Shown here: positions 10,259-18,326 of the stretch, in pieces
Layout: every line of letters begins with the position of its first letter
How positions within the stretch are numbered: position 1 is the stretch's first letter
Assembly: GCA_020849275.1 (NCBI GenBank)
Contig: JADLGO010000002.1
Coordinates: forward strand, 1 to 52,821
DNA: 52,821 bases
Source of the DNA: Chthonomonadales bacterium
GTDB taxonomy: Bacteria > Armatimonadota > Chthonomonadetes > Chthonomonadales > CAJBBX01
Direction of reading: 5' to 3'
Notes under the pieces: generated by a model
The model's input: only the letters and a program-made list of their open reading frames with translations
What the model was told of the DNA's origin: nothing
The model's database searches: none
Made by a program: the position numbers and the translations under genes

Positions 10259-11326
10259 GTGCCGCCCGTCGGGCGGCCACCCAACATGCCCGACCAGCCC
10301 ATGATGTACCGCGAGGCCGGCGTCGACATCGACGCGATGAATGCCGCCGTCCTCGGGATGCGCGAGCACGTGCGTTCCACCTTCACGCCGGGCGTCCTCA
10401 CCGACCTCGGATCGTTCGGCGGAATCTTCGCACCCGACTGGCGGGCCTACGACGACCCGGTCCTCGTCTCCAGCATCGACGGCGTCGGGACCAAGGTGAA
10501 GGTTGCCGCCGCCGTGAACCGCCACAGCACCGTGGGCATGGACTTGCTCAACCACTGCGCCAACGACATCCTGGTGCAGGGCGCGCGTCCGCTCTTCTTC
10601 CTCGACTACTTCGCCACCGGTCGCCTGTCGCCAGCGGTGGCCGTGCAGGTGGTCGAGGGCCTCTCAGAGGCGTGCCGCGCGGTCGGCTGCGCGCTGATCG
10701 GCGGCGAGACCGCCGAGTTGCCGGGCATCTACAACGAGGGTGACTACGACCTGGCGGGCTGCATCGTGGGAATCGTCGACCGGCAGCGTGTGGTGGATGG
10801 GCGCGACGTGGAGCCTGGTGACGCCGTGATCGGCCTGGCCTCCGATGGGCTGCACACGAACGGCTACTCGCTCGCACGGCGCGTCCTCCTGGAGATCGGT
10901 GGCCTCGCTCCGGAAGACCGGCCCCCGGCGCTCGGCGGAGAGACCCTGGCCGACGTGCTGCTCAGGCCGCACCGCTGCTATACCAACGCGGTCCTGCCGC
11001 TGCTGGACGCCGTGCGCGTCAAGGCGATGGCTCACATCACCGGCGGCGGGTTCTACGAGAACATCCCCCGCTCCCTTCCTCCTGACTGCAGCGTGACGGT
11101 CGACCGCCGCGACTGGACCATCCCGCCCATCTACCGACTGATCCAGGAGATCGGCTCCGTACCCGACCCCGAGATGTTCCGCACGTTCAACATGGGCATC
11201 GGCTACGTGCTGGTCGTGCAGCGCGAGGCAGCGATGGAGGCCGTGGAGCGCCTGAGCGCCGCGGGGGAGAACGCGTCGCTGATCGGCGAGGTATACCGGG
11301 GCGTCCACGAGGTTGACGTTCTCTAG
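10259..11326 (+). CDS. purM: phosphoribosylformylglycinamidine cyclo-ligase (AIR synthetase)
   Basis: 355 residues. It closes the imidazole ring, turning FGAM into AIR with ATP, the step after PurL. Recognised blocks are MYREAGVDIDA, SIDGVGTKVKVA, MDLLNHCANDILVQGARPLFFLDYFATG, LIGGETAELPG, GLASDGLHTNGYSLAR and AHITGGGFYENIPR. The start is uncertain: a GTG at 10259 has AAGGAG only 2 bases away, while the ATG at 10286 has no clear site. Both give a complete enzyme. It ends the cluster and is followed by a bidirectional terminator. Confidence 0.95.
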   Translation: MPPVGRPPNMPDQPMMYREAGVDIDAMNAAVLGMREHVRSTFTPGVLTDLGSFGGIFAPDWRAYDDPVLVSSIDGVGTKVKVAAAVNRHSTVGMDLLNHCANDILVQGARPLFFLDYFATGRLSPAVAVQVVEGLSEACRAVGCALIGGETAELPGIYNEGDYDLAGCIVGIVDRQRVVDGRDVEPGDAVIGLASDGLHTNGYSLARRVLLEIGGLAPEDRPPALGGETLADVLLRPHRCYTNAVLPLLDAVRVKAMAHITGGGFYENIPRSLPPDCSVTVDRRDWTIPPIYRLIQEIGSVPDPEMFRTFNMGIGYVLVVQREAAMEAVERLSAAGENASLIGEVYRGVHEVDVL

Positions 11327-11353
11327 CGCGCTCCACGGATTCGCGAACGAAGA

Positions 11354-11388
11354 GACGCCCCCCGGCCAACTGACGCGGGGGGCATCTT
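11354..11388. terminator. bidirectional terminator between purM and the Tat reductase gene
   Basis: GACGCCCCCC (11354-11363) pairs with GGGGGGCATC (11377-11386) around a 13-base loop, with one C/A mismatch on the plus strand that is a G-U pair on the minus transcript. It sits between two converging genes. The T tract is short. Confidence 0.55.
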
Positions 11389-11418
11389 CACCTACGCGGC
11401 GTGGCCGCCCGCTTGCGC

Positions 11419-12405
11419 TCAGACGGTCGCGCCGAAGCCGTCGACGGAGGCCGTCCTGGCCGCCACCGCGCCCACGTTCTCCTCGAACATGCCGAAGTTG
11501 CGCAGGCTGCTCACGCAGCAATGGAAGATCGGCTTCCCATCGCTGGCCGGAACCGTGAGGGCGTAGCGGAGGAGCGACCGGCCGATCATTCCGGGCGCCC
11601 TCATCTTGCGCTGCATCTCGGGGTCCGCTCCCATCCGGCCCCGACCGTTCGCGTTCACCTTCATCGCGGTCATGCCGATGCCCGCCTTGCGCGCCGCGGC
11701 GAAGATGTCATGCACATCCTGCGGCGAGCCGTACGAGAAAAACACCTGCATGCTGGCTACGCGGCCGTCCGCGATCTGCGCAGCGATCATCTCCGGGTAG
11801 GGAATGTAGTCGTGCTGGCTCACGCCGAAGTGCCTCACCTTGCCCTCGCGCTTCAGCCGCTCGAAGGCGCGCCAGGTGCCGTTCTGCTCCTTCAGCGCCC
11901 GCACGCTGCGCCAGCCATAGTGGGCGCGGAAGATGTCGTAGTAGCGGAAGCCGTTGCGGGCAAGGCTCTCCGTGACCTGGTTGTAGGCGCGATCCTCGTC
12001 GTCGGGATGGTCAGGCGTCGAGTCCACCGTGATGTCGGTGAAGTAGGACTCGCGGGGAACCTTCTTGAGCTCGTCGGGCATCTCGCCCCAGTAGCCGGCC
12101 TTGTGGATGAAGTTCATGCCGGCGGCGAGCGAGGGCCCAAGAAGCTCGCGAGCCGAGTCCTGGCAAACCAGGACCGGGGCGATCCGCATGTTGCCCATGC
12201 GCGCGCCAAGGCGGACCTTCGGGAGCTTGCCGAGTTGGTCGACCATGGCTTCGGTGGCCTCGGCGCGCTGTGAGCGGGTGAGCGAGCAACCGGCGAAGGC
12301 GGCGGACAGCAGACCGCCGCCGGCACCCGCCGCCGCGAGACGGCTGACGAACTCGCGGCGGCTGAGCGGCGCGGGAACGGTTCTTTGCGGCTGACGGCTA
12401 TCCAT
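11419..12405 (-). CDS. Tat-exported aldo/keto reductase homologue
   Basis: 328 residues. The N-terminus has a twin-arginine motif, SRREFVSRLAAAGAGGG, then a hydrophobic stretch ending AFAGC, so it may also be lipid-modified. The ATG at 12405 has GGGAG 9 bases upstream and is preferred to the GTG at 12411. The body follows the aldo/keto reductase barrel (LAAGMNFIHKAGYWG, AFERLKREGKVRHFGVSQHD). The catalytic Asp of the usual DTA-x-x-YG segment appears as His in NFIHKAGYWG, and the usual active-site Lys region reads ESYFTDITVDS with no Lys. It may therefore not be a working reductase. It lies downstream of the redox operon in the same direction. Confidence 0.75.
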   Translation of the reverse strand: MDSRQPQRTVPAPLSRREFVSRLAAAGAGGGLLSAAFAGCSLTRSQRAEATEAMVDQLGKLPKVRLGARMGNMRIAPVLVCQDSARELLGPSLAAGMNFIHKAGYWGEMPDELKKVPRESYFTDITVDSTPDHPDDEDRAYNQVTESLARNGFRYYDIFRAHYGWRSVRALKEQNGTWRAFERLKREGKVRHFGVSQHDYIPYPEMIAAQIADGRVASMQVFFSYGSPQDVHDIFAAARKAGIGMTAMKVNANGRGRMGADPEMQRKMRAPGMIGRSLLRYALTVPASDGKPIFHCCVSSLRNFGMFEENVGAVAARTASVDGFGATV

Positions 12406-12627
12406 GATCACGTTCTCCCTCGGTGACGCCGGTTCGGCGCCACCGTGGCGGTTCCCGGTCGGCTAGCGAGCGGCACGCCGTGGTGTCGCTCGCGGCTTGC
12501 CGGCCAGGGACAAGGTACTCGTCCATGCGCTCCAGGTCCGGCAGGGCGACGCCGGCGCAGGCTGGAGCCTACCGCGCACAGGTCACGGCGAAGTCGATCG
12601 GTCCCCCGGCAGCGCCCCCGCCGGCCA

Positions 12628-13008
12628 TCATGCCCCCTGCGCGACAGCGGCCGCGGCGAGGGCCGCGTCGAACTCGGTGGTGCCGAGAAGCCGGGCAAGC
12701 AGGCGCAGCATCCGCACCGGCGCGAGCGTACGCCGGACACCAACCGGCGCGCCCGTGCGCGCGTCGACGCGCGCGGGCCAGTCGCCGCACGCGCCCTGTT
12801 CCGACTTCAGCACGTGCGCCCAGTGCATGGCTGGCCCTATGTGCGACTGATCGCCGGTGCGCTCAGCCTCCGCGAGCGCCACCTCGCCCGTGACGGCAAC
12901 GGCCTCCACGTCGACCTCGAGGCACGGACCGGTGGCCAGGGGAAAGTGCGCGTAGCGCCAACCGGGCGGGGCCAGCGCCTCGCCTCCACCCTCCACGTCC
13001 TCGTGCAT
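12628..13008 (-). CDS. small unknown protein downstream of the polyferredoxin
   Basis: 126 residues, no family recognised. The start lies 6 bases after the stop of the polyferredoxin gene, suggesting translational coupling, but there is no clear ribosome-binding site (TAGGCGACG). Codon use looks coding, and the sequence has an acidic middle (VALAEAERTGDQSH) followed by a basic, leucine-rich end (RMLRLLARLLG). No Cys-rich motif, signal peptide or membrane segment is evident. It could be an accessory factor of the redox operon or a random open frame; position is the main support. Confidence 0.45.
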   Translation of the reverse strand: MHEDVEGGGEALAPPGWRYAHFPLATGPCLEVDVEAVAVTGEVALAEAERTGDQSHIGPAMHWAHVLKSEQGACGDWPARVDARTGAPVGVRRTLAPVRMLRLLARLLGTTEFDAALAAAAVAQGA

Positions 13009-13014
13009 CGTCGC

Positions 13015-14949
13015 CTAGAGCCCGCTTCCCGGCATCGGCGGGGCCCCCGGGCCCTGCACCTCTACCCGCTTGCGGAACTCCTCCACCGTTTCCGCGTACT
13101 CCGCCGTCTTGCCGGCCTCCTTGCGCTGGGTCCAGTTGCGCCGGAAGAAGCCGTCCATGGGCGTCTCGGACGGCGCGTCATACTCACGATCCTCCTGGAA
13201 CGTGTAGACGACGATGCTGTGGTCCGGCAGCACCGGGCAATGGTACTCGCAGATCCCACATCCCGTGCAGAGCTTCTCGTCGACGGTCGGCACGCGCTTC
13301 GTGCGCCCCTTGTTGCCCGGGTCCGTGATGGGCCGCGTGGGGTCTTTGGCCAGGCCATCGTCGAACTTGTCGCGGAAGACCACCGCCGAGTAGGGGCACA
13401 CCTCCGCGCACACCACGCAATCGCGTCCGCCGTTCCATGCGATGCAGGTGCTCTGGTTGACGTTGGCGAGGCCGAGCTTCAGCTTGTACCGCTTGTCCTG
13501 CCACGAGAAGGGCCGGATCGCGTGGGTCGGGCAGACGTCGCCGCAGGCGGTGCACTTCTCGGCGCACGGGCCGATGCTCGGCACCAGAATGGGTGTCCAG
13601 ATTCCCTCGACGCCGGTCTCCAGGAAGGCCGGCTGCAGCGCGTTGGTCGGGCAGACCTTCATGCACTCGGCACAGCGCGTGCAAGCCGAGAGGAAGGCGC
13701 GCTCGTCGAGCGCGCCGGGTGGGCGCATGGCGCGGTTGTTGCGCGGGTATCGACGCATGCGCCCCTGGTAGTTGTCGGCGGACGCGCGCGCCGTGGCCCC
13801 CCAAACCAGGCCGGCGCCGAGCGCGGCCACCACGCGGCGGCGACCCAGGTCGATGGCGTTCTGCGGCTCGGGTCGCGCGAGCGCGCCGGGCTTGGCCAGG
13901 CCGAGCCGCTCCTTCACCGCCGCCGGCACCCTGGCCTGGATCTGGATCACGTCCGGCGGGCAGATGGTCTCGCAGCGAAAGCACTGGATGCACTCACTCA
14001 TCGAGTGCTGCGCCGGCGCGCGCGCGTTGCGCTCCAGGTTCTCGTAGGAGCCCATGCGGCTCTGAATCTCGCACTTCTTGCAGTGGATGCACCCGTCCAT
14101 CTTGATGTAGTGGCGGAGACATCCCACGCGGGAGATCAGGGCCAGCAGGCCGCCGTATGGACACAGGTTTCGGCACCAGAACCGCTCCTGAACGGCCGAG
14201 AGCGCGATGACGCCGACGAAGACGATCAGCACCGGCACGGCGTTGTAGAACGTCATGGCCGGCACGTGCATCCCGTCCAGCTCGATCCCCGCGAAGCGAT
14301 AGAGAAGGCGGCTGACGCCGATCGCGTCGGTCACGCTCAGGATCCCGTTCCAGACGTACGCGATCGGCGCGTAGAAGCAGAAGGTGAACGTGCGCGTGAT
14401 GAGCGAGAGCGGATCTCCGAAGGTGAGAACGTCCACGCCATACGCGAGCGCGCCGAGGCCCACCAGCAGATAGATGTACTTCCAGTTGCGGAATCGGCGC
14501 GTCTCGGAGCGCCTTCGGTTGTAGAACAGGCGTCCCTTGCGATAGAGCAGCCGGTCGCTGATGTCGATCGCCGTGCCGAGCGGGCAGATCCAGCCGCAGA
14601 AGATCCGCCCGCCCCAGAGCGTGAGGAGGAGAATGAGCAGGCCGGGTCCGAGCGCATAGATGGCGACGTGGTGGGAGGCGATGGCGTTCTTCAGCGTGTT
14701 CAGGAAGTCGAGCGTCATGAACAGGTTCTTGGGGACCCATCCGACGTGCTGCGAGCTTACCGTGGTCATGAAGAAGAACAGGACGAAGAGGCCGAACAGC
14801 GTGAGCTGCGTCAGTCTCCGGAAGAAGACGATGCGGTGGGCAGCCTTGTTGCCCGGCTCCCGCACCATGCGCCGCTTCTGCTCGGGGGTGAGGGCACGCG
14901 CCGGAGTCACCGCCTCCGCGCGAATCACTTCGTCAGGCTGTACGGCCAT
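13015..14949 (-). CDS. membrane polyferredoxin, NapH/NapG-like fusion
   Basis: 644 residues. The N-terminal half is a NapH/MauN-type membrane part: a helix (LTLFGLFVLFFFMTTV), the motif GRIFCGWICPLG, further helices, and FWCRNLCPYGG. Next come cytoplasmic-type clusters CIHCKKC and CIQCFRCETICPP. A second module resembles NapG: CTRCAECMKVCPTN, CAEKCTACGDVCPTH, CVVCAEVCPYS and CTGCGICEYHCPV. The protein could bind about six iron-sulfur clusters and carry electrons across the membrane, probably from quinol. AGGAG lies 7 bases before the ATG at 14949; longer upstream frames are not coding-like. It sits between DUF362 and a small unknown gene. The terminal acceptor is not in the window. Confidence 0.88.
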   Translation of the reverse strand: MAVQPDEVIRAEAVTPARALTPEQKRRMVREPGNKAAHRIVFFRRLTQLTLFGLFVLFFFMTTVSSQHVGWVPKNLFMTLDFLNTLKNAIASHHVAIYALGPGLLILLLTLWGGRIFCGWICPLGTAIDISDRLLYRKGRLFYNRRRSETRRFRNWKYIYLLVGLGALAYGVDVLTFGDPLSLITRTFTFCFYAPIAYVWNGILSVTDAIGVSRLLYRFAGIELDGMHVPAMTFYNAVPVLIVFVGVIALSAVQERFWCRNLCPYGGLLALISRVGCLRHYIKMDGCIHCKKCEIQSRMGSYENLERNARAPAQHSMSECIQCFRCETICPPDVIQIQARVPAAVKERLGLAKPGALARPEPQNAIDLGRRRVVAALGAGLVWGATARASADNYQGRMRRYPRNNRAMRPPGALDERAFLSACTRCAECMKVCPTNALQPAFLETGVEGIWTPILVPSIGPCAEKCTACGDVCPTHAIRPFSWQDKRYKLKLGLANVNQSTCIAWNGGRDCVVCAEVCPYSAVVFRDKFDDGLAKDPTRPITDPGNKGRTKRVPTVDEKLCTGCGICEYHCPVLPDHSIVVYTFQEDREYDAPSETPMDGFFRRNWTQRKEAGKTAEYAETVEEFRKRVEVQGPGAPPMPGSGL

Positions 14950-14984
14950 CAACGGCTCCTGTAGGCATCCGGGCCATGCGGCGC

Positions 14985-16010
14985 TCAGGCGCCCGTTGGA
15001 CCGGCGATCTCGTGCACCTTCAGCCGGTCGCAGTCGATCTCGCCGCGGCCCAGTCGGCTCGCGAGGACGAGGTGGGGAACCTGGTCGGGAGTGACCCCCT
15101 TCACCGTCAGGTACCGCGTGCAGTAGGAATCCACCGCGACCGGGTCGACGCCGGCCACCACCTGGTTGGGCACCGTCACCTCGCCGGGTCCCTTGGGGCC
15201 ACGCGTCTGGAGCGCGCGGGTGGCGTCCGCCACGATCAGGTTGGGCCGCAGCGCCATGTTGAGCTCGGCGATGCACTCCTGAAGGCCGTACCGGTGGTAG
15301 TCCTTGCGGTTCCAGATGTTCCCCATCAGCTTCTTCATCGCGATAGTGATCACCGCCGCCTCGTGGTCCTTCACCACCGGGACGCAGAGGAAGGAGTCGC
15401 ACTCCAGGATCTCGCGCGCCACCTTCTGATAGACGCGGTTCTCGCGGTGCACGCTCGCATACGCCTCGCCGTCGATCGCCTTCGCCGGAACAGCGCCCGG
15501 GATGTCGACATCCCGGTACATCGCCACCTCGGTGGGCGATAGGAGGGCGGCACGGGTGCCGCGCACCGCGTCGCGGGCGCCGCAGATGTCGAAGGCCATC
15601 CTCCAGTCATCGAGCGTGTAGTCGATGCACGTGATGCGGGCGGCTCCCGCGCGCTGGCAGAGCTCGACGACACGGCGCAAAACGTCCGGGTGGGTGGCGG
15701 CGGCCTGGTCCGGCGTGCGCATCCAGCCCATGTTGGGGCTGATCACCACGCGGTCCCCCCGGCGCACGAACTTCTCGATGCCGCCCATCTCGTCGATCGC
15801 GCGCTCGGTGATCGCGGCGTAATCGGCGGCGGTCCCCTCCACCACCGCCAGGTCGGGCGCTCCCGCCGGCTTGGCGGCGGCCCGCATGCGGGGCGTGGCG
15901 ATGGCGTTCTCGTCGACGAACGTCAGGCCGTAGAGTCCGCCAAGGACGGCCGCGCCGCCCACGTACTCCAGCAACCTTCGCCGCGAGACGTGATCGGTGC
16001 GATCGGACAT
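14985..16010 (-). CDS. Tat-exported DUF362 protein
   Basis: 341 residues. It begins with a Tat-type leader (VSRRRLLEYVGGAAVLGGLYG). AAGGAG precedes the ATG at 16010 at good distance. The body matches the DUF362 family: VVISPNMGWMRTPDQAAATHP, ELCQRAGAARITCIDYTLDDW, and a late VVAGVDPVAVDSYC segment. Family members often occur next to or fused with ferredoxin domains, but their reaction is not established. Here it stands between a DUF6599 gene and a polyferredoxin gene, all on the minus strand with short gaps, so it is probably the extracytoplasmic partner of that electron-transfer protein. Confidence 0.85.
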   Translation of the reverse strand: MSDRTDHVSRRRLLEYVGGAAVLGGLYGLTFVDENAIATPRMRAAAKPAGAPDLAVVEGTAADYAAITERAIDEMGGIEKFVRRGDRVVISPNMGWMRTPDQAAATHPDVLRRVVELCQRAGAARITCIDYTLDDWRMAFDICGARDAVRGTRAALLSPTEVAMYRDVDIPGAVPAKAIDGEAYASVHRENRVYQKVAREILECDSFLCVPVVKDHEAAVITIAMKKLMGNIWNRKDYHRYGLQECIAELNMALRPNLIVADATRALQTRGPKGPGEVTVPNQVVAGVDPVAVDSYCTRYLTVKGVTPDQVPHLVLASRLGRGEIDCDRLKVHEIAGPTGA

Positions 16011-16083
16011 CCTGCACTCCTTGCCGCGTTCGACTGGCTGCGCGCGGGCCTCGCCGTCGGCGGGTGGGTCCTCGCGCGCCACG

Positions 16084-16992
16084 TCACCTCAGCCTGGCCA
16101 GCGCCTGGCGGACCAGGCGCTCGGCCACGGCGGCGTCGCGAGCGCGAAGCACGCCCACCACGTAGGAGCCCTTGCGGGCGACCACCACGTTCTTGGCGTA
16201 GCGGTCATTGACCCGGAACCCCTCGCTACCGAGGCCCTTCACCGGCGCCAGACCGGTGCCCGCCCGCTTCTCGTAGTCACGGTACTTGCCGAAAGCCGCC
16301 TGCGCTCCGGCTCCACTGCCGAGATGCGCGATGAAGAGCTCGGCTCCCTGGCCGAGCTTCGGGTAGCGCGCCGTGACGGCGTTGCTCAGGAACGACTGGC
16401 CGGCGACGTTGCGGCGCACGTACCGCTCACTGCGCGCCTGCCGCCCGGCGGGAAGCGCCTTCACGGCAGCCGGGAGCCCCGCCGCGCCGGCGATGCGCTT
16501 TGCGGCGGCGCGAGCGTAGCCCTCCATCGCGCCCCTGGCCGCCGGGGTCACCTGCACGATGGTGCAGCGAACCACGAACGGCCCCTTCCAAAAGTTGATG
16601 GCGCTGGGCTCGATGCGCACACCCTCGACGCCGATGGCGATCGGACGGCCGCTCTGTCGGTCGCTTCCGAACACGCCGAAGGCGTCCATGAGGGTACGCA
16701 TCTGGAAGACGTCGATGGTGAGGACGGGCTTCGTCTGGCGCGGCGGCGCGTACTCGGCGTGCGCGCAGGCCACGAAATCGTAGGAGAGGACCGCCTGCGC
16801 CTCGCCGTCGATGAGGTCGTAGAGGTTCCGGGAGTTGTACACGCGCGGCTTGCCGACGGTTCTCCAGCCGGCCGCCACGCCGCTCGGGGGAAGGACGCTC
16901 AGCGCACTCGCGGCCGCGGCCGGCCGGGCCGGGAGCAGGGCCAGACCGAGCGTTACGCACAGCAGCCATCTGACTCGAGAGGAGGCGAGCAT
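16084..16992 (-). CDS. exported DUF6599-like protein
   Basis: 302 residues. A signal peptide (MLASSRVRWLLCVTLGLALLPARPAAA) leads a protein with YNSRNLYDLIDGEAQAVLSYDFV, a segment I associate with the DUF6599 family, and a C-terminal VVARKGSYVVGVLRARD. AGGAG lies 8 bases before the ATG. No catalytic residues are evident. It is the first gene of the minus-strand operon DUF6599-DUF362-polyferredoxin, and all three products have membrane or export signals, so a shared envelope redox function is inferred. Confidence 0.75.
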   Translation of the reverse strand: MLASSRVRWLLCVTLGLALLPARPAAAASALSVLPPSGVAAGWRTVGKPRVYNSRNLYDLIDGEAQAVLSYDFVACAHAEYAPPRQTKPVLTIDVFQMRTLMDAFGVFGSDRQSGRPIAIGVEGVRIEPSAINFWKGPFVVRCTIVQVTPAARGAMEGYARAAAKRIAGAAGLPAAVKALPAGRQARSERYVRRNVAGQSFLSNAVTARYPKLGQGAELFIAHLGSGAGAQAAFGKYRDYEKRAGTGLAPVKGLGSEGFRVNDRYAKNVVVARKGSYVVGVLRARDAAVAERLVRQALARLR

Positions 16993-17139
16993 TCACGGTA
17001 CTCCTGTCGCGAGGGCACGGTTGCGCCCGCACGCGCATTCGTCGACGGGTCCCGATGGCGGCGATGGCAACCCGATTCTACCGGACGCTCGGGCGCCTGT
17101 CAATCCGGCCCCTGGAAGGCCCACGTGCAGCGTCGCCTC

Positions 17140-18138
17140 TCAGTGCCAGCGGGCGTTGGGCCCGAAGTCGGCCGTGTAGAACTCGCTCACATGCGTGCCG
17201 GGCGGCACGAGCTCATCCACGCGGCGCGCGTCGTCGTCGGTGACGGTCACCTCAACCGCCTTCAGGTTCTCCTCGAGTTGCTCGGGGGTGCGCGGGCCGA
17301 TGATCGGGCTGGTGACGCCCGGACGCGAGGCGCACCACGCGAGCGAGAAGGCCGTCATCGTGCAGCCCTTCGCGCTCGCAAGCTCACGGACCCCCTCGAC
17401 GGCGTCGAAGGCCCGATCCGTTGCGCGCTGATCGGGCATGCCCTTCTCGTAGCGCGAGCCGGCGGGCGCCTGGGCTCCCCGGGCGTACTTGCCCGTCAGC
17501 AGGCCGCCGGCCAGCGGCGACCAGGGGATGACAGCAACGCCGTAGGTACGGCAGTAGGGCAGCAGCTCGCGCTCGATGCGACGATCCAGGACGTTGAGGG
17601 GCGGCTGCTCGCAGACGAAGCGGGCCGTGCCGAGCGTCTCGGCGGCCCAGAGCGCCTCCACGAGTTGCCAGGCAGCGTAGGTGCTCGTGCCGATGTAAAG
17701 GACCTTGCCCGCCCGGACCAGATCGTCCAGCGCGCGCAGCGTCTCGTCGATGGGGACCAACGGCTGGGGCCGGTGTACCTGATAGAGATCGATACGGTCC
17801 GTGTTGAGGCGCCGCAGCGACTCCTCGCACTGCCGACGGACGTGGTAGCGGTGGTTGCCCCAGGCGTTGGGGTCCTGATCGTCCATGCGCCCGTGGAACT
17901 TGGTGGCCAGGAACACGCGATCGCGCCGTCCACCCACCGAGATCGCCTTGCCCGTGACCTCTTCGCTCGTCCCGCGAGCGTAGACGTTGGCGGTGTCGAG
18001 GAAGTTGATGCCCGCGTCCATCGCTCGATGGATCATCCGGATCGCCACGTCCTCCTCGGTCCCCCACCCGAAGTTCATGCAGCCGAGGCACAGCGGGCTC
18101 ACCTGTACCCCCGTTCGCCCAAGCGATCGGTACTCCAT
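17140..18138 (-). CDS. aldo/keto reductase
   Basis: 332 residues, cytoplasmic. It is the standard NADPH-dependent family: MEYRSLGRTGVQVSPLCLG start, DAGINFLDTANVYARG with the catalytic Asp and Tyr, LATKFHG with the Lys, DLYQVHRP with the His, and the C-terminal cofactor-binding SPIIGPRTPEQLEENL. The ATG at 18138 is the family start and has AAGGAG 10 bases upstream; the long upstream extension is not used. It has the complete active site, unlike the Tat-exported homologue at 11419. It diverges from clpB. The substrate is unknown. Confidence 0.9.
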   Translation of the reverse strand: MEYRSLGRTGVQVSPLCLGCMNFGWGTEEDVAIRMIHRAMDAGINFLDTANVYARGTSEEVTGKAISVGGRRDRVFLATKFHGRMDDQDPNAWGNHRYHVRRQCEESLRRLNTDRIDLYQVHRPQPLVPIDETLRALDDLVRAGKVLYIGTSTYAAWQLVEALWAAETLGTARFVCEQPPLNVLDRRIERELLPYCRTYGVAVIPWSPLAGGLLTGKYARGAQAPAGSRYEKGMPDQRATDRAFDAVEGVRELASAKGCTMTAFSLAWCASRPGVTSPIIGPRTPEQLEENLKAVEVTVTDDDARRVDELVPPGTHVSEFYTADFGPNARWH

Positions 18139-18326
18139 CTGCCCGTGCTCCTTAATGGGACGCGTCCGCGCCGGTATTGCCCGGCGGTTCGCCTCGGGCG
18201 GTGGGAATCCCTCCATGTCTACCGCCACGGTGCGGTCCCCTGGCGGGCGCGCCTCGCCGCGAGCGGGCGGAAGCGAGTGGGAGGCGAATCGGCGGAACCT
18301 CGAGGCGGCGTGCTGCGTAGTACTCG

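Follow-up and report, generated by a model that had tools for sequence, protein, structure and literature searches.

A membrane polyferredoxin and an exported DUF362 protein with the predicted fold of the LarA N-terminal (cofactor) domain are encoded side by side in the DNA studied here, and the pairing recurs in loci from many phyla. With moderate confidence, we propose that the DUF362 protein is an exported LarA-fold redox partner that exchanges electrons with the quinone pool via the polyferredoxin. The window, by which we mean the whole stretch of 52,821 nucleotides that was analysed, comes from a Chthonomonadales bacterium of the Armatimonadota (GCA_020849275.1, contig JADLGO010000002.1, positions 1-52,821, forward strand).

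Between positions 11,419 and 16,992 the window holds five closely spaced, adjacent minus-strand open reading frames, and their coordinates and the families assigned by Pfam agree with the original prediction. Read along the minus strand, they encode an exported DUF6599 protein (302 aa; 16,084-16,992; PF20244, 136 bits against a cut-off of 27), the DUF362 protein (341 aa; 14,985-16,010; PF04015, 136 bits against a cut-off of 24; twin-arginine signal SRRRLLE), the polyferredoxin (644 aa; 13,015-14,949; several Pfam Fer4 families), a 126-residue protein of unknown family, U126 (12,628-13,008), and a Tat-exported aldo/keto reductase homologue, Tat-AKR (11,419-12,411; PF00248 Aldo_ket_red, 45.5 bits against a cut-off of 24). 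The start of the DUF362 gene was taken as the ATG ahead of the RR motif; that of Tat-AKR may alternatively be the ATG at 12,405. The intergenic gaps, in the same order, are 73, 35, 6 and 216 nt. About 80 nt ahead of the DUF6599 start codon lies a promoter-like site (TTGACA-17-TAGAAT; 17,075-17,103, minus strand), a match to 11 of 12 consensus positions and as such not proof of a promoter. It is the sole match in the 6.1 kb from 11,200 to 17,300, where shuffled sequences average 0.3, and the same scan found no terminator-like site inside the cluster. The site is located between the DUF6599 gene and an upstream gene for a canonical aldo/keto reductase (17,140-18,141, also minus strand), which we rejected as a cluster member: its profile matches open reading frames in five loci only, none of them upstream of DUF6599.

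Two twin-arginine leaders had been predicted, and both are present, on the DUF362 protein and on Tat-AKR. There are nevertheless three Tat-type signals, not two, because the polyferredoxin has an internal twin-arginine motif of its own (R370-R371; codons at 13,837-13,842, minus strand). The remaining proteins had been placed outside the cytoplasm or in the membrane, which is correct for the polyferredoxin and for the DUF6599 protein, with its hydrophobic N-terminus and Sec-type signal peptide, but not for U126, in which a hydropathy scan found no signal and no membrane segment at the cut-off used.

The polyferredoxin consists of a NapH-like membrane half, two cytoplasmic ferredoxin sites, the internal Tat segment and a NapG-like half with four cluster sites. 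Four hydrophobic segments exceed the cut-off (46-64, 95-113, 159-177 and 235-253), the twin arginine precedes a weakly hydrophobic fifth segment below it, and the chain has 29 cysteines. These segments, together with the NapH and NapG matches, bear out the predicted NapGH-like fusion in the membrane. Like NapGH, the quinol dehydrogenase of periplasmic nitrate reduction, the polyferredoxin matches the NapH and NapG models, one with each half; unlike NapGH it is a single fused chain, and its scores (87.4 bits for NapH, 85.4 for NapG) are far under the NCBIfam curated cut-offs of 234 and 269. Quinol oxidation by this protein is putative and rests on homology to NapGH. Its organisation fits the polytopic dual Sec/Tat polyferredoxin family (PFD), whose type protein is Q1NSB0 of delta proteobacterium MLMS-1 and for which Tooke et al. 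2017 (PMC5449189) showed that reporters joined to the membrane part were exported in a Tat-dependent manner. As described there for PFD, the window protein appears as a NapH-NapG fusion in which an even number of membrane segments (four) is followed by RR directly before one weak fifth segment, with basic residues after it, and putative cytoplasmic clusters (three in PFD) would be followed by four outer ones. Unlike PFD, it lacks the fourth cysteine of one cytoplasmic ferredoxin site (S297), the only expected cysteine motif not found in full; cysteine is absent from both candidate positions of that ligand in 6 of 81 aligned rows. Provided that the two CX3CP motifs share one cluster, as Tooke et al. 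count, the protein would hold about seven Fe-S clusters in place of the predicted six or so, the S297 site lacking its usual fourth cysteine. All 81 rows share the cysteines of the four outer sites, the CX3CP motifs and both R115 and R256 without exception; R44 and Q48 are kept in 98-99%, and the internal twin arginine reads RR in 75 rows, the remaining 6 having RK or KR.

Gene content, gene order, Tat motifs and the predicted fold of the DUF362 protein were established by computation, and so was conservation, in 80 named loci from many phyla and in alignments of 81 polyferredoxin and 70 DUF362 rows. DUF362 directly adjoins the polyferredoxin on the same strand in 67 of the 80 loci and lies within its same-strand cluster in 73, at protein identities of 30-40% outside close relatives. 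The predicted conservation of co-occurrence and gene order was thus found. In the seven other loci, three are at contig edges and four have room on both sides yet no DUF362 nearby. The cluster is more than chance because its gene set and cysteines are conserved across phyla. The polyferredoxin was found in 93 of 291 Armatimonadota genomes, all 93 of which also have DUF362, many of them in several copies. DUF6599 recurs in 33 of the 80 loci. U126 and Tat-AKR, always together, occur in 11, the loci with U126 all being close relatives, and are a lineage-specific add-on.

The description as a Tat-exported DUF362 protein agrees with the PF04015 match and with a twin-arginine signal kept across rows: R10 is present in 70 of 70 aligned rows and R11 in at least 90%. 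Its structure model (pLDDT 91), compared with the PDB, returned LarA-family entries at ranks 1 to 12 with Z scores of 16-18.6, the first unrelated row having a Z of 5.3. The best LarA row, 9eia_A (Z 18.6, 2.5 A, 208 residues), pairs model residues 58-305 of 341 with chain residues 33-270 of 425. According to PMC11770544, Pfam includes both DUF362 and LarA in clan CL0471. By contrast, a profile sequence search of PDB chains with DUF362 did not find LarA; fold comparison alone did. Three residues, H216, K226 and H239 (codons within 15,294-15,365, minus strand), are invariant in 70 of 70 rows, and we propose them as counterparts of LarA H174, K184 and H200, to which PMC7583248 assigns roles in catalysis and in binding of the nickel-pincer nucleotide (NPN). 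A local profile alignment (hhalign local mode, mact 0; global mode gave meaningless output) pairs exactly these residues, but its E value of 0.11 and probability of 0.5% fall short of significance on sequence alone. In a first hhalign run, H216 and K226 were paired identically at a probability of 0.2%. Like LarA, the DUF362 protein has the predicted N-terminal domain fold, a His-x9-Lys spacing (H216-K226) and a later histidine. Unlike LarA, it has no C-terminal domain (the part with K298), its chain ending soon after the LarA-matching part, the profile alignment gives the second catalytic histidine of LarA (H108) no histidine partner, and it is Tat-exported beside an electron-transfer protein. 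A fixed 12-residue K226-H239 spacing was rejected as a universal feature: it is seen in 41 of 70 rows and is slightly longer in 29.

We infer a contact between the polyferredoxin and the DUF362 protein, an electron transfer, a cofactor and a reaction as follows. The polyferredoxin would sit in the membrane, where its NapH half would trade electrons with the quinone pool; these would pass the cytoplasmic-side clusters and then the four outer-side clusters, Tat having exported the second half of the protein. The outer-side partner would be the neighbouring DUF362 protein, carrying a tightly bound cofactor in its LarA-type domain and, for that reason, exported folded by Tat. By analogy with LarA, this might be NPN or a related organometallic nucleotide able to accept a hydride; K226 would tether it, H239 would bind the metal and H216 would serve as acid/base. 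Such a cofactor, together with a polyferredoxin to remove or supply electrons, would make the DUF362 protein a dehydrogenase or reductase, not a racemase. The DUF6599 protein could serve as a non-catalytic exported binding subunit, and Tat-AKR and the small soluble U126 may have been added in their lineage, perhaps for substrate handling. What is retained of the original reading is a membrane polyferredoxin with exported partners in a conserved order; U126, which shows no export signal, and Tat-AKR drop out as lineage extras. An outer-side partner encoded elsewhere is not required, because the exported DUF362 protein, with its predicted LarA N-domain fold, almost always accompanies the polyferredoxin.

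An unlikely alternative is that the polyferredoxin provides electrons in a general way, like NapGH, to a terminal reductase whose gene lies elsewhere, the DUF362 protein being an assembly or maturation factor and not an enzyme. NapGH is itself a quinol dehydrogenase serving another enzyme, according to PMC5449189, the Pfam search matched no Fe-S motif in the DUF362 protein itself, and inspection by eye found no obvious terminal reductase family among the recurrent neighbours of the cluster. However, Tat export, an invariant His/Lys set and a cofactor-type fold suit an enzyme better than a factor, and the several DUF362 copies in many of these genomes also speak against this role. That the genes are merely separate transcription units kept together by chance or slow rearrangement is highly improbable given their same-strand pairing across phyla at such low identity, with no terminator-like site within the cluster and a single promoter-like one ahead of it, even though 216 nt separate Tat-AKR from U126 and a ParB-like gene is inserted between DUF362 and the polyferredoxin in some relatives.

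NPN as the DUF362 cofactor is an unproven analogy, and there is a real, if lesser, chance that the LarA fold binds a different ligand (a metal ion, another nucleotide or substrate only) and that the module uses it to exchange electrons with a compound outside the cell. The residue match, not being significant by sequence, leaves room for this, and so do genomes without the NPN genes. G176, G193, G229 and G232 carry the cassette without LarC, LarE or Lar_N matches, and the control genome of Bacteroides ihuae encodes DUF362 but neither LarC nor LarE. Seven of the 93 polyferredoxin genomes lack both LarC and LarE, four of them (G176, G228, G229 and G232) being 95-98 or 99% complete, and the L017 genome lacks LarC and Lar_N although the two His and the Lys are all conserved in its DUF362 row. 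On the other hand, LarC is missing less often for DUF362 (15 of 149) than for Lar_N (28 of 134), and its absence therefore cannot tell the two apart. The 80 cassette loci contain no larC or larE gene, and no DUF362 or polyferredoxin gene is near the eight lar regions examined. Among the 291 Armatimonadota genomes, LarC is present in 85 of 93 with the polyferredoxin and 80 of 198 without, but stratification by family gives 85 observed against 84.2 expected (two families with no visible mutual border were merged, and the family of unlisted genomes was inferred from order). The raw association disappears because polyferredoxin, DUF362 and LarC are all absent from 93 genomes of two families, and we rejected genome co-occurrence as support for NPN beyond phylogeny. 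Across phyla, LarC was found in 41 of 50 cassette genomes, a non-random set from the 80 loci with the close relatives L002-L015 omitted and many Aminicenantes thinned; LarA may explain it in most of them, since 37 also match Lar_N, and 9 of the 13 without Lar_N have LarC. Synechococcus elongatus, also a control, has DUF362, LarC and LarE and no Lar_N match. PMC11796402, which reports a mass shift of 450.2 Da for NPN bound to LarA, states that about 15% of genomes have larB, larE and larC without larA, and proposes a yet-to-be-identified NPN protein, above all in cyanobacteria, for which its authors expect a fold distinct from LarA. That these missing NPN users are DUF362 proteins, and that the cassette encodes an exported NPN-dependent dehydrogenase or reductase which the polyferredoxin connects to the quinone pool, we regard as a speculative and doubtful extension of our preferred reading.

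The three remaining proteins had been correctly described as an exported DUF6599 protein, a 126-residue protein of unknown family and a Tat-exported aldo/keto reductase homologue. The DUF6599 model (pLDDT 93) predicts two Mog1/PsbP-like alpha/beta domains; the best VIA row is the PknH ectodomain (Z 11.7, 124 residues, 2.6 A, residues 174-302), and Foldseek gave one match under E 0.001. This likeness gives no function, and no paper on DUF6599 was found in the literature searched. For U126, searches of Pfam and NCBIfam at E 0.01 gave no match. Aldo/keto reductases use a catalytic tetrad of Asp, Tyr, Lys and His (D50, Y55, K84 and H117). Tat-AKR belongs to their Pfam family and has a Tat-type signal, but when aligned with canonical members it shows D50 replaced by H, Y55 by W and K84 by T, and H117 retained; the 11 Tat-type rows that extend across these positions likewise keep the histidine alone. 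By its sequence, Tat-AKR would be an exported pseudo-AKR with a single residue of the catalytic tetrad left.

The polyferredoxin is of an already known kind, PFD, for which the text seen of PMC5449189 names no gene partner (a search of it for DUF362 and operon gave 0 occurrences), and no tie of DUF362 to a polyferredoxin was found in the parts of the literature searched. What is new is the near-constant DUF362 partner with a predicted LarA N-domain fold, and such a partner gives a testable function to a widespread, uncharacterised module. If its cofactor were NPN, this would tell which proteins depend on NPN where LarA is absent, and it would reveal an NPN enzyme engaged in net redox chemistry on the extracytoplasmic side.

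The cassette lies on the minus strand of the window, in a 4.8-Mb genome that is 99.9% complete. Among the best 80 of the 288 loci found with the polyferredoxin, this genome's nearest named relatives are MAGs assigned to Chthonomonadales (phylum Armatimonadota). Its genes run in the order DUF6599 (16084-16992), DUF362 (14985-16010), polyferredoxin (13015-14949), the 126-aa open reading frame U126 (12628-13008) and a Tat-exported aldo/keto reductase (AKR) homologue, Tat-AKR (11419-12411), with successive gaps of 73, 35, 6 and 216 nt. The sole promoter-like match between 11200 and 17300 (17103-17075, minus strand) is directly upstream of DUF6599, and no terminator-like match was found in that interval. 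A canonical AKR gene (PF00248, 271 bits; 17140-18141) directly precedes the cassette on the same strand; the promoter-like site falls between the two and thus sets the cassette apart from this gene, which is not conserved with it.

The original prediction of a NapGH-like polyferredoxin was broadly right. The two halves of the protein match the NapH and NapG models with scores far under both curated cut-offs. Hydropathy gives four clear membrane segments, and between the halves stands D-L-G-R-R-R, followed by a weakly hydrophobic stretch and then basic residues; the twin-arginine position is RR in 75 of 81 aligned rows and RK or KR in the other six. Tooke et al. 2017 (PMC5449189) describe the same layout, with seven predicted clusters, for a family inserted jointly by Sec and Tat, and show Tat-dependent export of reporters for one member. 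The window's polyferredoxin is best placed in this already described family, which it fits except for a serine (S297) as the fourth residue of one cytoplasmic ferredoxin site. That position is Cys in 66 of the 81 rows and Ser in 15; some of the Ser rows have a Cys four residues downstream and six, the window's included, have neither.

The pairing of this polyferredoxin with DUF362 is nearly constant. In 67 of the best 80 of 288 loci DUF362 directly adjoins the polyferredoxin on the same strand, and in six more a single gene separates the two within the cluster; of the remaining seven, three are at contig edges and four (L024, L047, L054 and L070) lack it. These 80 loci include Armatimonadota, Aminicenantes, Acidobacteria, Poribacteria, WOR-3/Stahlbacteria, Hebobacteria, Spirochaetes, Deltaproteobacteria, Chitinivibrionales, Fibrobacter, Anaerolineales, Gemmatimonadetes and Omnitrophota. 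The polyferredoxin was found in 93 of 291 Armatimonadota genomes (E 1e-30), all 93 of which have DUF362. Some close relatives carry a gene that by eye is a ParB-like regulator between the two (L009:8989-9759, L014:7204-7983). In Aminicenantes loci (e.g. L048:6535-8988) the pair is preceded, in fixed order, by what appear by eye to be a phosphoglycerate-mutase-like gene and an exported-protein gene.

The other genes are less widely shared. DUF6599 is present in 33 of the same best 80 loci, adjoining DUF362 or the polyferredoxin in 31, and in several (e.g. L021, L028, L055) a second, longer DUF362 stands ahead of it. The model of DUF6599 (pLDDT 93) resembles Mog1/PsbP-type alpha/beta domains in its structural matches, which suggests a subunit for binding or scaffolding. 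The 80 include 11 with U126 and Tat-AKR, which never appear one without the other, and all 11 are among the 14 nearest relatives (L002-L015). Three loci of that set are without them: L009 and L012, which stop 1-2.3 kb past the polyferredoxin, and L015, which has 10 kb still available. U126 gave no family match in Pfam or NCBIfam, and no signal or, by hydropathy, membrane segment. Aligned with canonical AKRs, Tat-AKR retains only the His of the catalytic tetrad, so that a normal NADPH-dependent reaction is unlikely, as expected outside the cytoplasm. An AKR gene is directly downstream of the polyferredoxin in some relatives: a Tat-type pseudo-AKR in L005 (11969-12979) and L008 (11948-13042), the latter with a second one farther along, and a canonical one, besides their Tat-type one, in L007 (10816-11856) and L011 (6846-7916).

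The AlphaFold model of the DUF362 protein (mean pLDDT 91.3) resembles lactate racemase, LarA. Foldseek against the PDB returned only twelve LarA-family chains below E 0.001, and in VIA-align LarA-family entries took ranks 1-12 (top 9eia_A, Z 18.6, 2.5 A over 208 residues), the first other fold following at Z 5.3. According to PMC11770544, DUF362 and the LarA family share Pfam clan CL0471. R10 is retained in all 70 alignment rows kept, and 17 columns are invariant, including K214, H216, K226, H239, D262 and D294. When the DUF362 profile was compared with one of 14 aligned Armatimonadota LarA homologues near solved LarA, local alignment placed H216, K226 and H239 on LarA H174, K184 and H200, at an E of 0.11 that alone is not significant; the correspondence therefore rests on the fold match together with a consistent but weak alignment. 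The H-x9-K spacing is identical; from K to H, 41 of 70 DUF362 rows have 12 residues and the rest slightly more, versus 15 in all 14 LarA rows. An interaction with the nickel-pincer nucleotide (NPN) is reported for K184 and H200, and a catalytic role for H174 (PMC7583248); NPN is attached through a Lys thioamide plus a His bound to the nickel (PMC12611868). Another DUF362 protein encoded in the window's genome (G000:C53:63452-64051, L101), without an evident Tat signal, shows by eye the same type of pattern, K-x-H-x9-K-x12-H, so the residue set is not limited to exported members.

The NPN biosynthesis proteins LarC and LarE are both encoded in the window's genome, which also gives one weak match to the LarA N-terminal domain (Lar_N). 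Of the 291 Armatimonadota genomes, the 93 polyferredoxin carriers include 85 with LarC and 82 with LarE, and the 198 others 80 and 79. This contrast is phylogenetic, since permutation within families gives 84.2 genomes with polyferredoxin and LarC against the 85 observed; for DUF362 and LarC the figures are 131.0 and 134 (p about 0.03). Seven of the 93 carriers lack both LarC and LarE, and LarC is missing from 28 of 134 Lar_N genomes versus 15 of 149 DUF362 genomes, so its absence counts no more sharply against DUF362 than against LarA. Among the 50 carriers reached via named loci, 41 have LarC and 37 Lar_N. Given the permutation, the LarA exception rate and these 37 Lar_N genomes, we take the co-occurrence as neutral evidence. 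Many genomes of Armatimonadota family f16 (G158-G175) have LarC and LarE without a Lar_N match and, with the sole exception of G163, without DUF362; another NPN user may be present there. LarC gives two matches in most genomes of another family (G038-G054), which may mirror a split or frameshifted larC, as in lactobacilli.

The analysis shows gene order, conservation, export motifs and the predicted DUF362 fold; contact, electron transfer with its direction, cofactor and substrate are inferred. Most probably, going by homology, the NapH half would trade electrons with the quinone pool, and the chain of clusters would relay these through the membrane as far as the outer half with its four clusters. 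The closest outer partner would be the DUF362 protein, exported folded. A domain of the LarA type points to a tethered nucleotide cofactor and to hydride chemistry upon it; LarA only racemises or epimerises, whereas an electron relay alongside such a domain could permit net oxidation or reduction.

As far as our literature search shows, the near-constant pairing of the polyferredoxin with exported DUF362 across many phyla is new, as are the predicted LarA-type fold of the exported DUF362 protein and the His-Lys-His correspondence between DUF362 and LarA. The last is a direct lead on a question posed in PMC11796402, that of NPN users without LarA.
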